Assembly (NCBI RefSeq): GCF_003318165.1
Contig: NZ_QOCB01000023.1
Span: forward strand, 1-64,000
Direction: 5' to 3'
DNA: 64,000 nucleotides
Source: Psychromonas sp. B3M02
GTDB taxonomy: Bacteria > Pseudomonadota > Gammaproteobacteria > Enterobacterales > Psychromonadaceae
Shown: in pieces, positions 263 to 7,983 of the stretch
How the letters are laid out: every line of letters starts with the position of its first letter
Numbering within the stretch: position 1 is the first letter of the stretch
Translations under genes and position numbers: made by a program
The notes under the pieces: generated by a model
Told to the model about the DNA's origin: nothing
Seen by the model: the letters and a program-made list of their open reading frames with translations, nothing else
The model's database searches: none

Positions 263-1912
263 TCAGAAGTTTAAGAATGGCTGCGATGCAGCAACCAATA
301 ACCAACAACTTTCAATATCGACATTACCTTGAGTTTTAATAACCGTTGCATGTTCTGGCGTAAAAACACGTGCAGACATAACAGCTCGGCCATCATCAAT
401 GAATATTTCTAATGATGAGTTATCTGAGAGAATTTGTATTTTTACTTGATCTAAACCCGGTAAAGCGAACTCTCTTAATGTGTCTCCTTCACGAATTAAC
501 GTATTTGATCTATCTAACTCTAAAACTTGCTTTTCAGCATTTAAACGTATCTCACAGCAACTAGACTCTGAACAATACAAAGATAAGCAACTTCCCCACT
601 CTAATGTAGCAATTAATTCAAAGGATTTACTCTTTAGATCAATGCTTTTTTGATGCGGCTCAATGCTCACTTTAGTTTCACGTAAAGAACTTAGCTCTGC
701 TAGCGGTAATTGTATTAATCGGTCATTGTGGTATGACAATTCACGTAAAGCAGTTAATTGATGTACCCATCCATTATCACAACTTTCATGATTAACTTCA
801 TCTGGTAACCCCATCCAACCACACATAATCCTTCTGCCATCTTTAGACTCTAGAGTTTGTGGAGCATAGAAATCAAAACCATGATCTAAGGTTTGAGGAT
901 CACTCATAATCACTCTATTATCATTATCAAAAAATGCTTTTAAGATGCAATTATGATGCTTGACAGTATTGCTTGCATAAGGTGATTTGATACCTTGCGG
1001 GCAGATCACTATGAACTCCTGATTATTTAGCTTGAAAAAATCAGGGCACTCCCACATGTAACCAAAATCCCCTAATTCATCACCACACAGACTAACAAAA
1101 GACCAATTTTTTAAATCTAATGATTCATAAATTGCTAAACGACCAACCTCGTCTTCCCTTTGCGCACCTAATAACATCAACCATTTGTTATTATAAAAAA
1201 TAACTTTAGGGTCTCTACAATGAGGAGTGACATTGGGCGGAAGCTCTGTAATAACCGGTCCATGTTTTATAAAATCAGTAGTGTTCGAAGAAGAAGCTAT
1301 ACATTGCATTGTTTGTCTAACTCTATCTTCACCAATACGTACATTTCCAGTATAAAAAAGTAGTAGCTCTTGCTCATAACTTAATGCGTGCCCAGAAAAG
1401 ACTCCATGGCTATCAAAGTAATCAGAGGGCATCAAAACTAATGATTTCCAATGCCAATTGACTAAATCTAAACTACTTAAATGAACCCAGTGCTTATCTT
1501 TATGCTCGCATCCATAAGGGTAAAGTTGATAAAAAAGATGGTATTCGCCTTGGTGATAAATAAAACCGTTAGGATCGTTTAGTAGCCCCTGAGGAGGAGA
1601 AATATGCCATTTTGGACGATGAGGGCAATCAACAGGTGTAAGGTAATTACTTGCCATTTTTAATTGTTGTTGAGAAATTAATCTGCCTATCTCTAGCAAC
1701 TGCTGCTTAATAGAGTCTGAATCGTCTCCACCCGTTGCAGAGGAAGGTATTAAAAACGTGATCTGCTTCAGACAAGGGTTGTAGCTTTCTATTGCAGCGT
1801 CTTCTTTTAATAAATCCTGATCTTTAATCTCTAAAATAATACGCGAATCAGGATTCAAAATACGAGATATATTTTCAACACCTCCGCATTGCTCAAGCAT
1901 CGCTAACAACAT
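263..1912 (-). CDS. scrB: Sucrose-6-phosphate hydrolase (GH32) with a degenerate EIIB-like N-terminus
   Basis: Cytoplasmic enzyme that splits sucrose-6-phosphate, made by the PTS, into glucose-6-phosphate and fructose. GH32 signatures are clear: NDPNG with the nucleophile Asp113, an RDP motif (HCRDPKV) and the acid/base EC motif (MWECPDFF), followed by a C-terminal beta-sandwich region. I chose the ATG at 1912 (549 aa) because GAGG lies 5 nt upstream. The longer frame from 1972 would put a promoter and the ScrR operator inside the gene. Residues 1 to about 60 are not part of the GH32 fold. They align with the EIIB domain of the neighbouring ScrA (GGVENI against GGKENI, then R-IILEIKD against R-LRLAVED), but Pro21 replaces the phosphorylated Cys. 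The gene has its own promoter and sits downstream of scrR on the same strand. Confidence 0.93.
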   Translation of the reverse strand: MLLAMLEQCGGVENISRILNPDSRIILEIKDQDLLKEDAAIESYNPCLKQITFLIPSSATGGDDSDSIKQQLLEIGRLISQQQLKMASNYLTPVDCPHRPKWHISPPQGLLNDPNGFIYHQGEYHLFYQLYPYGCEHKDKHWVHLSSLDLVNWHWKSLVLMPSDYFDSHGVFSGHALSYEQELLLFYTGNVRIGEDRVRQTMQCIASSSNTTDFIKHGPVITELPPNVTPHCRDPKVIFYNNKWLMLLGAQREDEVGRLAIYESLDLKNWSFVSLCGDELGDFGYMWECPDFFKLNNQEFIVICPQGIKSPYASNTVKHHNCILKAFFDNDNRVIMSDPQTLDHGFDFYAPQTLESKDGRRIMCGWMGLPDEVNHESCDNGWVHQLTALRELSYHNDRLIQLPLAELSSLRETKVSIEPHQKSIDLKSKSFELIATLEWGSCLSLYCSESSCCEIRLNAEKQVLELDRSNTLIREGDTLREFALPGLDQVKIQILSDNSSLEIFIDDGRAVMSARVFTPEHATVIKTQGNVDIESCWLLVAASQPFLNF

Positions 1913-2043: not shown

Positions 2044-3033
2044 TTAACAACTACTTCGAGAAACATCTTCGAAACTCAAGACCAATTTACTTACTTCAGA
2101 ACTTTTATTTTCTATTAATTCAAGTAGCATTTGAGCCGATTTTTGACCCGATAATTGAAAGCCGTAATTGAAAGTAGATAAACTAGGGGTGCAGACTTTA
2201 CCAAGCTCATCATTACCAACACCTAACACTTTAATGTTAACACCAGGTTTTAGATTCGCTTCGCTTATTGCCTTCATAGCACCAATGGCAATCCTATCTG
2301 TCGCACAAAATAAACCATCAAGTTGAGGCCACTTTATGAGTAGGTCTTTTGTCTGTTGATATCCAGACTCGATTGTAAACTCACCACGACTATGAAATAA
2401 AGGTAACTTTTCGTTTGACCTTATTAGCGCCTGTTGTAACCCTTGGAAACGATCATTATCAACCGCTATATCTTGGCTATTCACTCCAATAAACCCAATC
2501 TCTTTAGCCCCTGCATTTAATAACCGAATACCCGCATTGAAGCCGACTCGTAAGTCATCATGGATGACACTAGGTATATTATAAAGAGACCCATCTTGAC
2601 CGATTAAAACAACGGGTACTACAGATGCCTGAATCGCTTCTACTAATGATGAGTCTAAATGAGTGGCAAAATGTAAAATACCTTCTACACGTCTTTGGTT
2701 AAACCGCGTTATGTATTCAATTTCCTTATCATTATTCTGTTCGCTATTCGCTAATAATAAATGTTTTCCGGCCTTTTCAAAAACACTTGCCATACCTTCT
2801 AACCCTAAGGAAACAGCGTTTGATGAAATTCTTGGAGCAATGACGCCTATCAGGTGTGTTTTTTGTGACTTTAAATCTCGAGCAACTTGATTGGCCATAT
2901 AACCACATTCATCAATTGCTTTTAACACTTTAGCTTTTGTGCTTTTTTTTACACCGTACTCATTATTAATAACCCGAGATACAGTGGATTTTGATACGCC
3001 AGCTAATTTAGCAACAGCATGCAACCCAGACAT
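2044..3033 (-). CDS. scrR: LacI/GalR-family sucrose operon repressor
   Basis: Predicted repressor of the sucrose genes, 329 aa, the normal LacI-family length. The N-terminal helix-turn-helix (about residues 4-24, AVAKLAGVSKSTVSRVIN) is followed by the hinge helix region (ANQVARDLKS) and a periplasmic-binding-protein-like sugar domain starting at HLIGVIAP. The start at 3033 has AAGGG about 6 nt upstream. The ligand in characterised ScrR proteins is fructose or fructose-1-phosphate; which applies here cannot be read from sequence. Two identical 16-bp operators (1927-1942 and 3199-3214) are its likely targets. The gene lies between them, on the same strand as scrB and divergent from scrA. Confidence 0.9.
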   Translation of the reverse strand: MSGLHAVAKLAGVSKSTVSRVINNEYGVKKSTKAKVLKAIDECGYMANQVARDLKSQKTHLIGVIAPRISSNAVSLGLEGMASVFEKAGKHLLLANSEQNNDKEIEYITRFNQRRVEGILHFATHLDSSLVEAIQASVVPVVLIGQDGSLYNIPSVIHDDLRVGFNAGIRLLNAGAKEIGFIGVNSQDIAVDNDRFQGLQQALIRSNEKLPLFHSRGEFTIESGYQQTKDLLIKWPQLDGLFCATDRIAIGAMKAISEANLKPGVNIKVLGVGNDELGKVCTPSLSTFNYGFQLSGQKSAQMLLELIENKSSEVSKLVLSFEDVSRSSC

Positions 3034-3198
3034 ATTTTCCCTTAAAATATTTATAATTTACAAACGAATCATACCAAACATCCTAAAATCAACCAATATA
3101 AGCATAATCATATGCTTATACTCGCAACAATGGTCGAAGTCACACTTCTTCATAAACAAACTTGTAAATAGAGTTAAATTGCAGAAAAATCCAATTAC

Positions 3199-3214
3199 TG
3201 CAAACGTTCCCAAT
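3199..3214 (+). promoter_or_regulatory. Probable ScrR operator of scrA-scrK
   Basis: TGCAAACGTTCCCAAT, an exact 16-bp copy of the operator in front of scrB, lies 24 nt before the scrA start codon. The core TGnnAACGTTnnCA is palindromic about the central CG, as in LacI-family sites. A TTGTAA at 3162-3167 could be the -35 box upstream, but the -10 is weak. Confidence 0.8.
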
Positions 3215-3237: not shown

Positions 3238-4671
3238 ATGAATTATCCGCAAGTTGCTATCAAATTAGTCAAGATGTTGGGGGGAAAAGAAAACATAAAA
3301 GCATTAGCTCACTGTGCAACTCGTTTACGCCTAGCTGTTGAAGATGAATCAAAAATTGATGAAAATGCGATCGACTCACTTGAAGGTGTTAAAGGTCAAT
3401 TTAAAGTAGCGGGTCAATACCAAGTCATTTTTGGTTCTGGGATAGTTAATCAAGTGTACTCGGAGATGGCTAAGATAACTGGCATGAGTGATATGAGTAC
3501 CAAAGATGTAGCTGCATCTGGTGCTACAAAACAAAACATAGTACAACAAGCAGTTAAAGGCTTATCAGATATATTTGTTCCTATTATCCCTGCTATTGTA
3601 GCAGGTGGTTTATTGATGGGTATATTCAATATACTAGTAGCCCCCGGTTTATTTATCGAAGGGAAGTCTCTCGTTGACGCTTACCCAGGCATCACAGATC
3701 TAGCAAACTTAATCAATACCTTTGCAAATGCTCCTTTTGTTTTTTTACCTATTTTGATTGCTTTTTCAGCCAGTAAAAAATTTGGAGGGAACCCCTTCTT
3801 AGCTGCTGCATTAGGCATGTTAATGGTACATCCAGATCTATTAAATGGTTGGGGGTTTAGTGGTGCAGCCATTTCAGGGAATATACCTGTGTGGGATATT
3901 CTTGGCTATGAAATTGAAAAAGTAGGCTATCAAGGTTCAGTACTGCCTGTTCTAGTGGCTACTTATATCCTTGCTAAAATAGAAATAGGATTAAGAAAGT
4001 TTATTCCATCAGTATTAGATAATTTATTAACTCCCCTCTTAGCAATTTTTATCACTGGCATACTAACTTTCACTGTCGTTGGTCCATTCACTCGTGATAT
4101 CGGCTTTTTATTAGGCGATGGATTAAATTGGTTATATGACTCTGCTGGCTTTATTGGTGGTGCATTATTTGGTTTTATTTATGCTCCTTTTGTAATCACA
4201 GGCATGCATCACAGCTTTATTGCCATAGAGATCCAACTACTCGCTGATATTGCGGTGACAGGTGGATCTTTCATTTTCCCAATCGCTGCAATGGCTAATA
4301 TTGCTCAAGGCGGTGCAGCTTTAGCAGTAGGCTTTACAACTAAGGATATCAAACTAAAAGGTATTGCAATTCCATCAGGCATTACTGCATTACTAGGGAT
4401 AACAGAGCCAGCAATGTTCGGTGTTAATTTAAAATTACGTTACCCATTCATTGCCGCTATTTGTGGTGCAGCTACAGCAAGTGCATTTATTACACTGTTT
4501 AATGTTAAAGCAAGTGCTCTAGGTGCAGCTGGAATACCTGGTATTATTTCTATCAGAACAGGTGATGTAACTCCATATATCATTGGCATGCTTATCGCTT
4601 TTATTACTACTTTTGTGCTTACCCTGTTGCTTGGCTCTAGAGCTAAATCTAAACAGTTAAAATCAGCATAA
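3238..4671 (+). CDS. scrA: Sucrose-specific PTS permease, EIIBC
   Basis: Inner-membrane phosphotransferase permease that imports sucrose and phosphorylates it to sucrose-6-phosphate. The N-terminal EIIB domain (about 1-85) carries the phosphorylation site Cys26 in ALAHCATRLRL. The EIIC domain (about 105-465) is strongly hydrophobic and has the family motif GITEPAMFGVN near residue 386. There is no EIIA domain at the C-terminus, so it probably takes phosphate from the glucose EIIA (Crr), as known EIIBC-Scr proteins do. The length, 477 aa, is usual for the family. AGGAG precedes the ATG. It is the first gene of a scrA-scrK unit behind an ScrR operator. No sucrose porin (ScrY) gene is seen nearby. 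Confidence 0.95.
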   Translation: MNYPQVAIKLVKMLGGKENIKALAHCATRLRLAVEDESKIDENAIDSLEGVKGQFKVAGQYQVIFGSGIVNQVYSEMAKITGMSDMSTKDVAASGATKQNIVQQAVKGLSDIFVPIIPAIVAGGLLMGIFNILVAPGLFIEGKSLVDAYPGITDLANLINTFANAPFVFLPILIAFSASKKFGGNPFLAAALGMLMVHPDLLNGWGFSGAAISGNIPVWDILGYEIEKVGYQGSVLPVLVATYILAKIEIGLRKFIPSVLDNLLTPLLAIFITGILTFTVVGPFTRDIGFLLGDGLNWLYDSAGFIGGALFGFIYAPFVITGMHHSFIAIEIQLLADIAVTGGSFIFPIAAMANIAQGGAALAVGFTTKDIKLKGIAIPSGITALLGITEPAMFGVNLKLRYPFIAAICGAATASAFITLFNVKASALGAAGIPGIISIRTGDVTPYIIGMLIAFITTFVLTLLLGSRAKSKQLKSA

Positions 4672-4723: not shown

Positions 4724-5644
4724 ATGAATAAAGTTTGGGTTAGCGGTGATGCTGTTGTGGATTTAATTCCTGAAGGTTTAGATACATACTTAAAATGTCC
4801 TGGAGGCGCACCAGCTAATGTAGCAGTTGCTATTTCACGTCTCGGAGGAGAAAGCGCTTTTTTTGGTCGGATTGGTCATGACCCAATCGGGAGATTCATG
4901 CTTGAAACTTTATCCGAAGAATCGGTTGATACTACCAACATCACAATCGATACCAAACAACGAACATCCACAGTGGTTGTTGACTTAGATGAACTAGGTG
5001 AACGCACCTTCACTTTTATGGTTAAGCCTAGTGCAGATCAATTTATGCAAGCTTCAGATATTCCTAAGTTTGAAACGAATCAATGGTTACATATTTGCTC
5101 TATTGCACTCGCTAATGAGCCGAGTCGAAGTAGTACATTTTTAGCAATAAAAAAGATGAAAGAAGAAGGGGGATATATTAGTTTTGATCCTAATTTAAGA
5201 GATGAAGTATGGTCAAAGCCAGAAGAAATAAAAGAAGTGGTGTTAAATGCAGTAAAGCTTGCTGATGTCGTTAAATTTTCCGATGATGAACTATTATTTT
5301 TAACTGATAGTCACGATTTAAATGAGGCTTTATTAAAGATTAAAGCCTATAAAAATACACTAGTATTAGTTACTCAAGGGGCTAAAGGAGCGCTAGTAAT
5401 TAACGGAAATGAACAACAACTAATTAAGGGGAAAGCAGCGGTGCCTGTTGATACAACGGGAGCTGGCGATGCATTTGTAGGTGGTCTACTTCGTTACTTA
5501 TCTGCCAGTAACAATTGGTTTGCTCAAAACGAAATACTAACAGCGGTAAAATGGGCCAATGCATGTGGAGCTTTGGCAGTCACTAAAAAAGGCGCAATGA
5601 CTGCATTACCTAATATGCAACAATTAACCCATTACCTGAAATAA
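4724..5644 (+). CDS. scrK: Fructokinase (PfkB/ribokinase family)
   Basis: Phosphorylates the fructose released by ScrB to fructose-6-phosphate for glycolysis. 306 aa. Both PfkB family signatures are present: the glycine-rich GGAPANVAVAISRLGG at residues 27-42 and DTTGAGDAFVGG with catalytic Asp249. The start ATG has AGAGG about 6 nt upstream. It follows scrA on the same strand, 52 nt downstream across a hairpin, and so probably shares the ScrR-controlled transcript. The sucrose context favours fructose as the substrate over other PfkB sugars. Confidence 0.92.
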   Translation: MNKVWVSGDAVVDLIPEGLDTYLKCPGGAPANVAVAISRLGGESAFFGRIGHDPIGRFMLETLSEESVDTTNITIDTKQRTSTVVVDLDELGERTFTFMVKPSADQFMQASDIPKFETNQWLHICSIALANEPSRSSTFLAIKKMKEEGGYISFDPNLRDEVWSKPEEIKEVVLNAVKLADVVKFSDDELLFLTDSHDLNEALLKIKAYKNTLVLVTQGAKGALVINGNEQQLIKGKAAVPVDTTGAGDAFVGGLLRYLSASNNWFAQNEILTAVKWANACGALAVTKKGAMTALPNMQQLTHYLK

Positions 5645-6343: not shown

Positions 6344-7924
6344 TTATTCCCATTCGATGGTTGCAGGTGGTTTACCTGACACATCGTACACAACTCGTGA
6401 GATACCATCAATTTCATTAATGATGCGGTTAGAAACATGACCGATTAACTCATAAGGTAAATGCGACCAACGTGCGGTCATGAAATCGATAGTTTCAACA
6501 CAACGTAGTGAAACAACCCAATCATATTTACGACAATCGCCCATCACACCGACTGAACGAACCGGTAGGAATACTACAAATGCTTGGCTTACTTTATGGT
6601 ATAACTCAGCTTTGTGTAATTCTTCAATGAAGATAGCATCTGCACGACGTAATAGATCACAGTACTCTTTCTTCACTTCACCTAAAACACGCACACCTAG
6701 ACCAGGCCCAGGGAATGGGTGACGATAAAGCATGCCATACGGTAAACCTAGTTCTAAACCAATTTTACGTACTTCATCTTTAAATAATTCACGTAATGGC
6801 TCTACCAGACCCATTGCCATATCATCCGGTAATCCACCTACGTTATGGTGAGATTTAATGACGTGTGCTTTACCGTTTTTAGAAGCTGCAGATTCAATAA
6901 CATCAGGGTAAATAGTGCCTTGAGCTAACCATTTTGCATTTGATAATTTCTTAGACTCTTCATCGAAAATTTCAACAAAGACACGACCAATAATTTTACG
7001 CTTCGCTTCTGGATCGCTTTCACCCGCCATTTGCTCTAAGAAACGGTGCTCCGCATTAACATGAACAATGTTTAGACCAAATTTTTCGCCAAACATCTCC
7101 ATCACTTGCGCGCCTTCGTTTAAACGCAATAAACCGTTATCAACAAATACACAAGTTAGCTTATCGCCAATCGCACGCTGTAAAAGCATTGCTACTACAG
7201 ATGAATCAACACCACCAGATAAACCTAAGATAACTTCATCATCGCCTACTTGTTCTTTCATACGAACTACTGCATCGTCAATGATTGATGCAGGCGTCCA
7301 AAGTGTTTCACAGCCACAAATATCCACAACGAAGTTGCGAAGCATTGCTTCACCTTGAGTTGTGTGAGTTACTTCTGGGTGGAATTGAACACCGTAAAAA
7401 CGTTTCTCTTCATTCGCAATAGCAGCGTATTTACAAGTAGCAGTATTAGCAACAGTAGTAAAGTCAGCTGGAATAGCTGACACTTTATCACCATGACTCA
7501 TCCATACGTCTAATAACGTTTTACCTTGTTCAGATATAGCATCTTGGATTGACTTAAAGAAGGCAGATTCCGCTTGTACTTCTACCTGCGCATAACCAAA
7601 TTCACCTTCACCTTCGCCTTTGATTACAGCGCCGCCTAATTGGTGAGACATAGTCTGCATACCGTAACAGATACCTAATACTGGGACACCAGCAGTAAAT
7701 ACATATTCAGGTGCGCGAGGAGAGCCTTCAGCGATAACGCTTTCAGGGCCACCAGCAAGGATAATACCGTTTGGATTAAACTCTTTGATGTCTTGTTCAT
7801 CAACATCCCAGCTCCATAGTTCACAGTAAACACCAATTTCACGAATACGGCGTGCAATTAGCTGTGTGTATTGAGAGCCAAAGTCTAATATTAGAATACG
7901 TTGGTCATGAATGTTCTTACTCAT
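6344..7924 (-). CDS. guaA: GMP synthase (glutamine-hydrolysing)
   Basis: Converts XMP to GMP using glutamine and ATP, the last step of de novo guanine nucleotide synthesis. 526 aa. An N-terminal class I glutamine amidotransferase (about 1-205) has the catalytic Cys in LGICYGMQ and the His/Glu pair in GVQFHPEV. The ATP pyrophosphatase domain carries the P-loop [10 protein letters not shown] near residue 235, followed by the C-terminal dimerisation domain ending in TIEWE. AGGA lies about 8 nt before the ATG. It follows guaB on the same strand, but the 164-nt gap holds two hairpins, so the two genes may not be expressed equally. Confidence 0.97.
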
Positions 7925-7959
7925 TATGCTGTCCTAATTTTTTGTTTCTAAAAATGAAT

Positions 7960-7983
7960 AAAAGACGATATAAATCGTCTTTT
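7960..7983 (-). terminator. Hairpin just upstream of guaA
   Basis: 10-bp stem AAAAGACGAT / ATCGTCTTTT with a 4-nt loop between guaB and guaA, followed on the minus strand by a T-rich tail. It looks like a weak terminator or attenuator that would lower read-through from guaB into guaA. Confidence 0.5.

Follow-up and report, generated by a model that had tools for sequence, protein, structure and literature searches.

A probable degenerate PTS EIIB domain at the N-terminus of sucrose-6-phosphate hydrolase in Psychromonas and Vibrionaceae

The sucrose-6-phosphate hydrolase ScrB of Psychromonas sp. B3M02 begins with a segment whose residues 1 to approximately 56 very probably descend, in degenerate form, from an EIIB domain of the glucose/sucrose family of the phosphotransferase system (PTS). 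The best explanation as a whole, to which we assign a probability of about 0.5, is that of a glycoside hydrolase family 32 (GH32) enzyme carrying this pseudo-EIIB as a module for structure or interaction rather than catalysis.

The sucrose cluster and its hydrolase

The window, meaning the whole 64,000-nucleotide stretch of DNA that was analysed, contains a sucrose cluster composed of scrB, scrR, scrA, and scrK. Its features, with the strand in brackets, are listed below.

266–1912 (−): scrB, with the likely start codon ATG at 1912 and a product of 549 aa
266–1642 (−): GH32 part of ScrB (sucrose-6-phosphate hydrolase), residues 91–549, with NDPNG at 112–116, RDP at 233–235, and ECPD at 288–291
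1643–1744 (−): ScrB residues 57–90, a short helix (57–60) and a long helix (62–90) linking the pseudo-EIIB to GH32
1745–1912 (−): probable pseudo-EIIB core of ScrB, residues 1–56, with a helix at 2–8 and strands at 15–19, 24–29, (43–45), and 50–54
1850–1852 (−): codon of ScrB Pro21, placed at the EIIB phosphocysteine position by sequence alignment
1929–1943 (−): LacI-type operator-like site TTGCAAACGTTCCCA, directly upstream of the scrB start
2044–3033 (−): scrR, LacI-family repressor, from the open reading frame and its sequence
3198–3212 (+): second operator-like site, with 1 mismatch, upstream of scrA
3238–4671 (+): scrA, sucrose PTS EIIBC (TIGR01996)
3238–3477 (+): EIIB domain of ScrA, the comparison partner, with Cys26, T28, R29, and R31 intact
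4724–5644 (+): scrK, PfkB-type fructokinase, from the open reading frame and its sequence

The enzyme part of ScrB is complete. The protein scores 432 bits against TIGR01322 (cut-off 356), and both the N and C domains of Pfam GH32 are matched, with the match starting near residue 96. The catalytic motifs NDPNG, RDP, and ECPD are all present and are invariant in 45 aligned ScrBs; the first of them lies at residue 112, exactly where it had been placed before. Clustering with scrA, scrK, and scrR suggests that the enzyme acts on sucrose-6-phosphate. Its nearest relative in named genomes is the ScrB of Psychromonas sp. 14N.309.X.WAT.B.A12, which is 98% identical. The propeller, the beta-sandwich, and all catalytic motifs are shared with the ScrBs (TIGR01322, GH32) of Lactobacillus gasseri (6nu7) and Frischella perrara (7vco), whereas the window ScrB has about 70 additional residues ahead of GH32; these solved ScrBs lack the pseudo-EIIB, and no solved structure containing it was found.

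scrB probably starts at the ATG at 1912, which its relatives share; in these, stops in the same frame immediately precede it, and an operator-like palindrome in the window lies between it and a possible upstream TTG. The extended product of 569 aa starting at that TTG was ruled out on the same grounds. The core word of the operator-like site also occurs upstream of scrB in most relatives. A third operator-like word near the scrB site (1967–1981) is weaker, with 3 mismatches, and is within chance expectation for the whole window.

Relationship to PTS EIIB domains

In the original prediction, residues 1–60 of ScrB were aligned without gaps to the EIIB domain of ScrA and were read as a degenerate EIIB fused to the enzyme. 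GGVENI occupies residues 10–15 of ScrB, Pro21 faces Cys26 of ScrA, and R24 faces R29. A single BLASTP comparison aligned residues 3–39 without gaps to the ScrA domain, with 27% identity and an E-value of 4e-4. The gapless alignment therefore stands for this portion but not for the more distal AIES/AIDS pair, which is one residue off register and needs a gap.

On its own, the ScrB sequence matches PF00367 below threshold (E 0.05; 13.4 bits, cut-off 27), although a family-level profile comparison makes the match significant. Aligned by hhalign, 40 ScrB N-domains and 77 EIIBs gave a probability of 95.9, an E-value of 5e-9, and a score of 45.8. The controls scored far lower: 11.8 for the reversed EIIB alignment, at most 23.4 among 200 column shuffles, and at most 17.5 among real-protein decoys, which were 66 windows of ScrA-EIIC, ScrR, ScrK, and GH32. 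The similarity thus exceeds background. When the official PF00367 model was run over the whole genome in six frames, true EIIBs took ranks 1–3 and the ScrB N-terminus rank 4.

Searches in the opposite direction led to the same family. In a search of 395 genomes from the order, a profile of nine Psychromonas N-domains placed ScrBs at the top, followed by EIIBs aligned in register; the next six best matches with a fetched locus (L034, L036–L040) were EIIBs, and 10 of the 14 non-ScrB loci fetched from this search encode EIICB or EIIBC proteins with an EIIB. When the domain profile was compared with 2,761 open frames from the collected loci, EIIBs made up 24 of the 26 best non-ScrB matches, a count that is not independent because some loci had been fetched using a similar profile. 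Against PDB sequences, the domain profile returned chance matches to tau repeats alone and no EIIB. C-terminal EIIBs (those of EIICB proteins) scored a mean of 16.3 bits against the domain profile and N-terminal ones 12.8 bits; this difference is small, and the comparison does not demonstrate descent of the pseudo-EIIB from the neighbouring scrA.

AlphaFold2, which had been proposed as a check, predicted an EIIB-like alpha/beta fold for the domain alone (35 natural domains; pLDDT 87), with the order H-E-E-E-E-H. In a Foldseek comparison of this model with the PDB, EIIB chains were six of the best ten matches (ranks 1–4, 6, and 10), namely the GlpD-PtsG model, the PtsG model, 3bp3, 1o2f, 3ipj, and 3bp8, with probabilities of 0.94–1.00. 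The TM-scores of just 0.50–0.56 and E-values of at least 0.003 indicate an EIIB fold, but a diverged one, and no Foldseek match at all fell under an E-value of 0.001. In the full-length model (pLDDT 91, pTM 0.91), the single helix 62–90 spans the junction between the domain and GH32, taking the place both of the last EIIB helix and of the N-terminal helix of ordinary ScrBs, which begin at about this helix in the alignment. The profile comparison with its controls, the PF00367 genome rank, and the predicted fold together uphold the proposed fusion.

The ScrB domain shares with glucose/sucrose-family EIIBs (PF00367, TIGR00826) the order of the fold, the GGxxNI turn with its GG, N, and I, the hydrophobic character of strands 1 and 2, the Asp that follows strand 2, and the QV(x)F motif of strand 4, whose Q is found in 92% of the 40 ScrB N-domains. 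It differs in being fused to a hydrolase, not to EIIC, in the shortened beta-3 region, near which about six residues are absent, and in the loss of the phosphocysteine and of the motif C-x-T-R-x-R, whose Cys, Thr, and two Arg are each 100% conserved in the 77 EIIBs. The phosphocysteine column of the 40 ScrB N-domains holds Pro (75%), Thr (8%), Val (8%), Ser (5%), or Asp (2%), and Cys in 0 of 40, so the replacement first noticed as Pro21 extends to the whole set. The Thr column is divided between Asp (22%), Ser (20%), and Glu (15%) with no clear majority; the first Arg column retains Arg in 40%, and the second is occupied by Ile (72%) or Val (12%). Since phosphate cannot be accepted on a missing cysteine, the pseudo-EIIB, judged from its sequence, would be incapable of cysteine phosphocarrier work.

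Other positions have become fixed. G10, N14, R17, and L19 are 100% conserved in the ScrB N-domains, and G11 and Q50 at least 92%; R17 and L19 are new, and R17 is no EIIB residue. The loss or lack of conservation of the Cys, Thr, and two Arg, combined with this new fixation, suggests that the old active-site edge was rebuilt and then conserved.

EIIB-like domains are also found in PRD-type regulators such as MtlR, where the fold serves regulation rather than transport; these belong to other EIIB families, are parts of transcription factors, and are partly still phosphorylated. Fusions of enzymes with EIIB are already known. The triosephosphate isomerase–EIIB fusion (NF011497, PRK14905), a model that ScrA also matches, likewise joins a metabolic enzyme to a glucose/sucrose-family EIIB, but the enzyme is different and the EIIB is C-terminal.

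Distribution and origin

Among ScrBs from named genomes, the 34 that are at least 48% identical to that of the window all carry the domain (Psychromonas, Vibrio, and Photobacterium), and none of the next 46, which are at most 41% identical (Pectobacterium, Serratia, Erwinia, Bacillaceae, and others), does. The ScrB of Salinivibrio likewise has it, and the earlier guess that ScrBs of vibrios share the segment has proved correct. Among 331 Vibrionaceae genomes searched, about 100 contain the domain and 185 some ScrB-family match. Outside Psychromonas and Vibrionaceae, samples of 369 genomes of the class and 399 of the phylum gave weak matches only (best E 0.001), several of which are of EIIBC-like length.

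In a tree of 119 GH32 parts, built by a quick method and with some long branches, a single branch (SH-aLRT 100) separates the 58 carriers from all other ScrBs. The domain is present in all 58 members of this clade, which corresponds to one change and 0 losses on the tree. We infer that a single fusion event placed a glucose/sucrose-family EIIB segment at the 5' end of scrB in an ancestor of the Vibrionaceae/Psychromonas ScrB clade. The domain then lost the phosphocysteine together with the nearby Thr and Arg residues and no longer has a full beta-3 segment, but its scaffold and GGxxNI turn persist. In the predicted model, the last helix of the domain merges with the hydrolase's N-terminal helix, which would hold the domain as a fixed appendage on GH32.

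Several loci depart from the usual arrangement. Another Psychromonas carries a decayed piece of an EIIB-type ScrB (L172, about 7584–7961; G003:C3:263583-263960), which covers residues 423–548 with 53% identity, contains two stops, and adjoins ampD-guaA-guaB, a neighbourhood shared with the window; an EIIB-less scr cluster is located elsewhere in the same genome (L169), and this is an apparent cluster replacement. Two matches to the N-domain (G581:C6:114631-114867 and G491:C58:15418-15627) fall in short open frames of 147 and 172 aa, which probably reflect disrupted scrB genes or errors of assembly. The genome of Vibrio albus encodes two different ScrBs with the pseudo-EIIB (L054 and L081), one of them without a surrounding scr cluster. 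In one Vibrionaceae genome, a frame of 831 aa (L173; G683:C1:643500-648000) runs from an AraC-type DNA-binding region in frame into an EIIB-less ScrB, and represents either a true fusion or a lost stop codon.

Possible roles of the domain and its annotation

A role within ScrB itself, in subunit contact, stability, or active-site tuning, ranks first, as a tentative choice. The old active-site edge, C9-G-G-x-x-N-I-x-R17-x-L19-x-P21, would then be reused as a contact surface. This role is favoured over one exerted on ScrA because the same type of ScrA also occurs with EIIB-less ScrBs. If the domain does act inside ScrB, it would clearly exemplify the conversion of a phosphocarrier domain into a structural element. 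A partner outside ScrB may also be involved. A dead phosphocarrier reused as a PTS-derived regulatory or docking domain, coupling the hydrolysis of sucrose-6-phosphate to the transporter or to EIIA-Glc, is a more doubtful proposal; contact with the PTS would tie uptake physically and directly to catabolism.

Docking of the pseudo-EIIB on the EIIC (or EIIB) of ScrA, which would hold the hydrolase at the transporter's cytoplasmic mouth to take over the released sucrose-6-phosphate, is unlikely. EIIB domains naturally sit on EIIC, ScrB and ScrA share a pathway and a cluster, and each of the 8 further genomes examined has an ScrA ortholog (76–79% identical), even where scrA lies more than 5 kb from scrB. 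However, carriers of the pseudo-EIIB have ScrAs 72–85% identical to that of the window, and in nine Vibrionaceae genomes an equally similar ScrA (77–81%) adjoins an EIIB-less ScrB. A comparison of carriers with these nine genomes revealed no special ScrA co-occurring with the domain, and there is thus no sign that ScrA depends on it. The surface around the former cysteine has moreover been rebuilt, and enterobacterial ScrA/ScrB pairs manage without the domain. The docking to the permease suggested in the original prediction consequently found no support.

Somewhat less likely still is a relic, i.e., a functionless fused fragment kept since the fusion is hard to lose. The domain does evolve faster than GH32, with identities falling to 25–30% across the clade. 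In eight pairs with a defined value, its dN/dS is mostly 0.25–0.4 (range 0.08 to 0.82; short alignments), and the GH32 parts of the same pairs give about 0.04–0.12. Values below 1 in every such pair, yet above those of GH32, suggest that the domain is under purifying selection which is weaker than that on the enzyme part. The four invariant and two nearly invariant positions, including the non-EIIB residue R17, and the absence of losses in 58 members also argue against a relic.

Binding of EIIA-Glc (Crr) in one phosphorylation state, by which the hydrolase would be tuned or EIIA sequestered, is improbable. EIIA-Glc is the natural partner of glucose/sucrose-family EIIBs, and the two Arg of EIIB contact EIIA in the E. 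coli complex (PDB 1O2F). In the ScrB domains, these columns are Arg in 40% and mostly Ile, respectively, the Cys is gone, and the Thr is unconserved, which argues against docking in the known mode as well as against reading of PTS phosphorylation; some other mode of docking may exist. The suggested docking to EIIA-Glc or sensing of the PTS state is hence left unsupported, even though sucrose transport in V. cholerae depends on EIIA-Glc, a protein with many partners (PMC6123446).

Finally, a chance resemblance, in which an unrelated small alpha/beta extension shares GGxxNI, was rejected as highly improbable: it is in keeping with the weak single-sequence Pfam match, with other weak families matching single members, and with the lack of PDB EIIBs in the sequence search, but the profile–profile score is approximately twice that of the best column shuffle and 2.6 times that of the best real decoy, and the whole-genome PF00367 rank and the EIIB fold matches also stand against it.

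No published description of the segment was found in the open-licence literature. Sucrose clusters of Photobacterium have been described, and in the parts of that report available to us Pfam domains are shown for ScrA only and the ScrB segment is unmentioned (PMC7690375). Because Pfam and NCBIfam cut-offs miss the domain, which occurs in about 100 of the 331 Vibrionaceae genomes, annotation leaves out the first tenth of a main sucrose enzyme in marine bacteria; the PGAP label of one carrier reads 'glycoside hydrolase family 32 protein' only.
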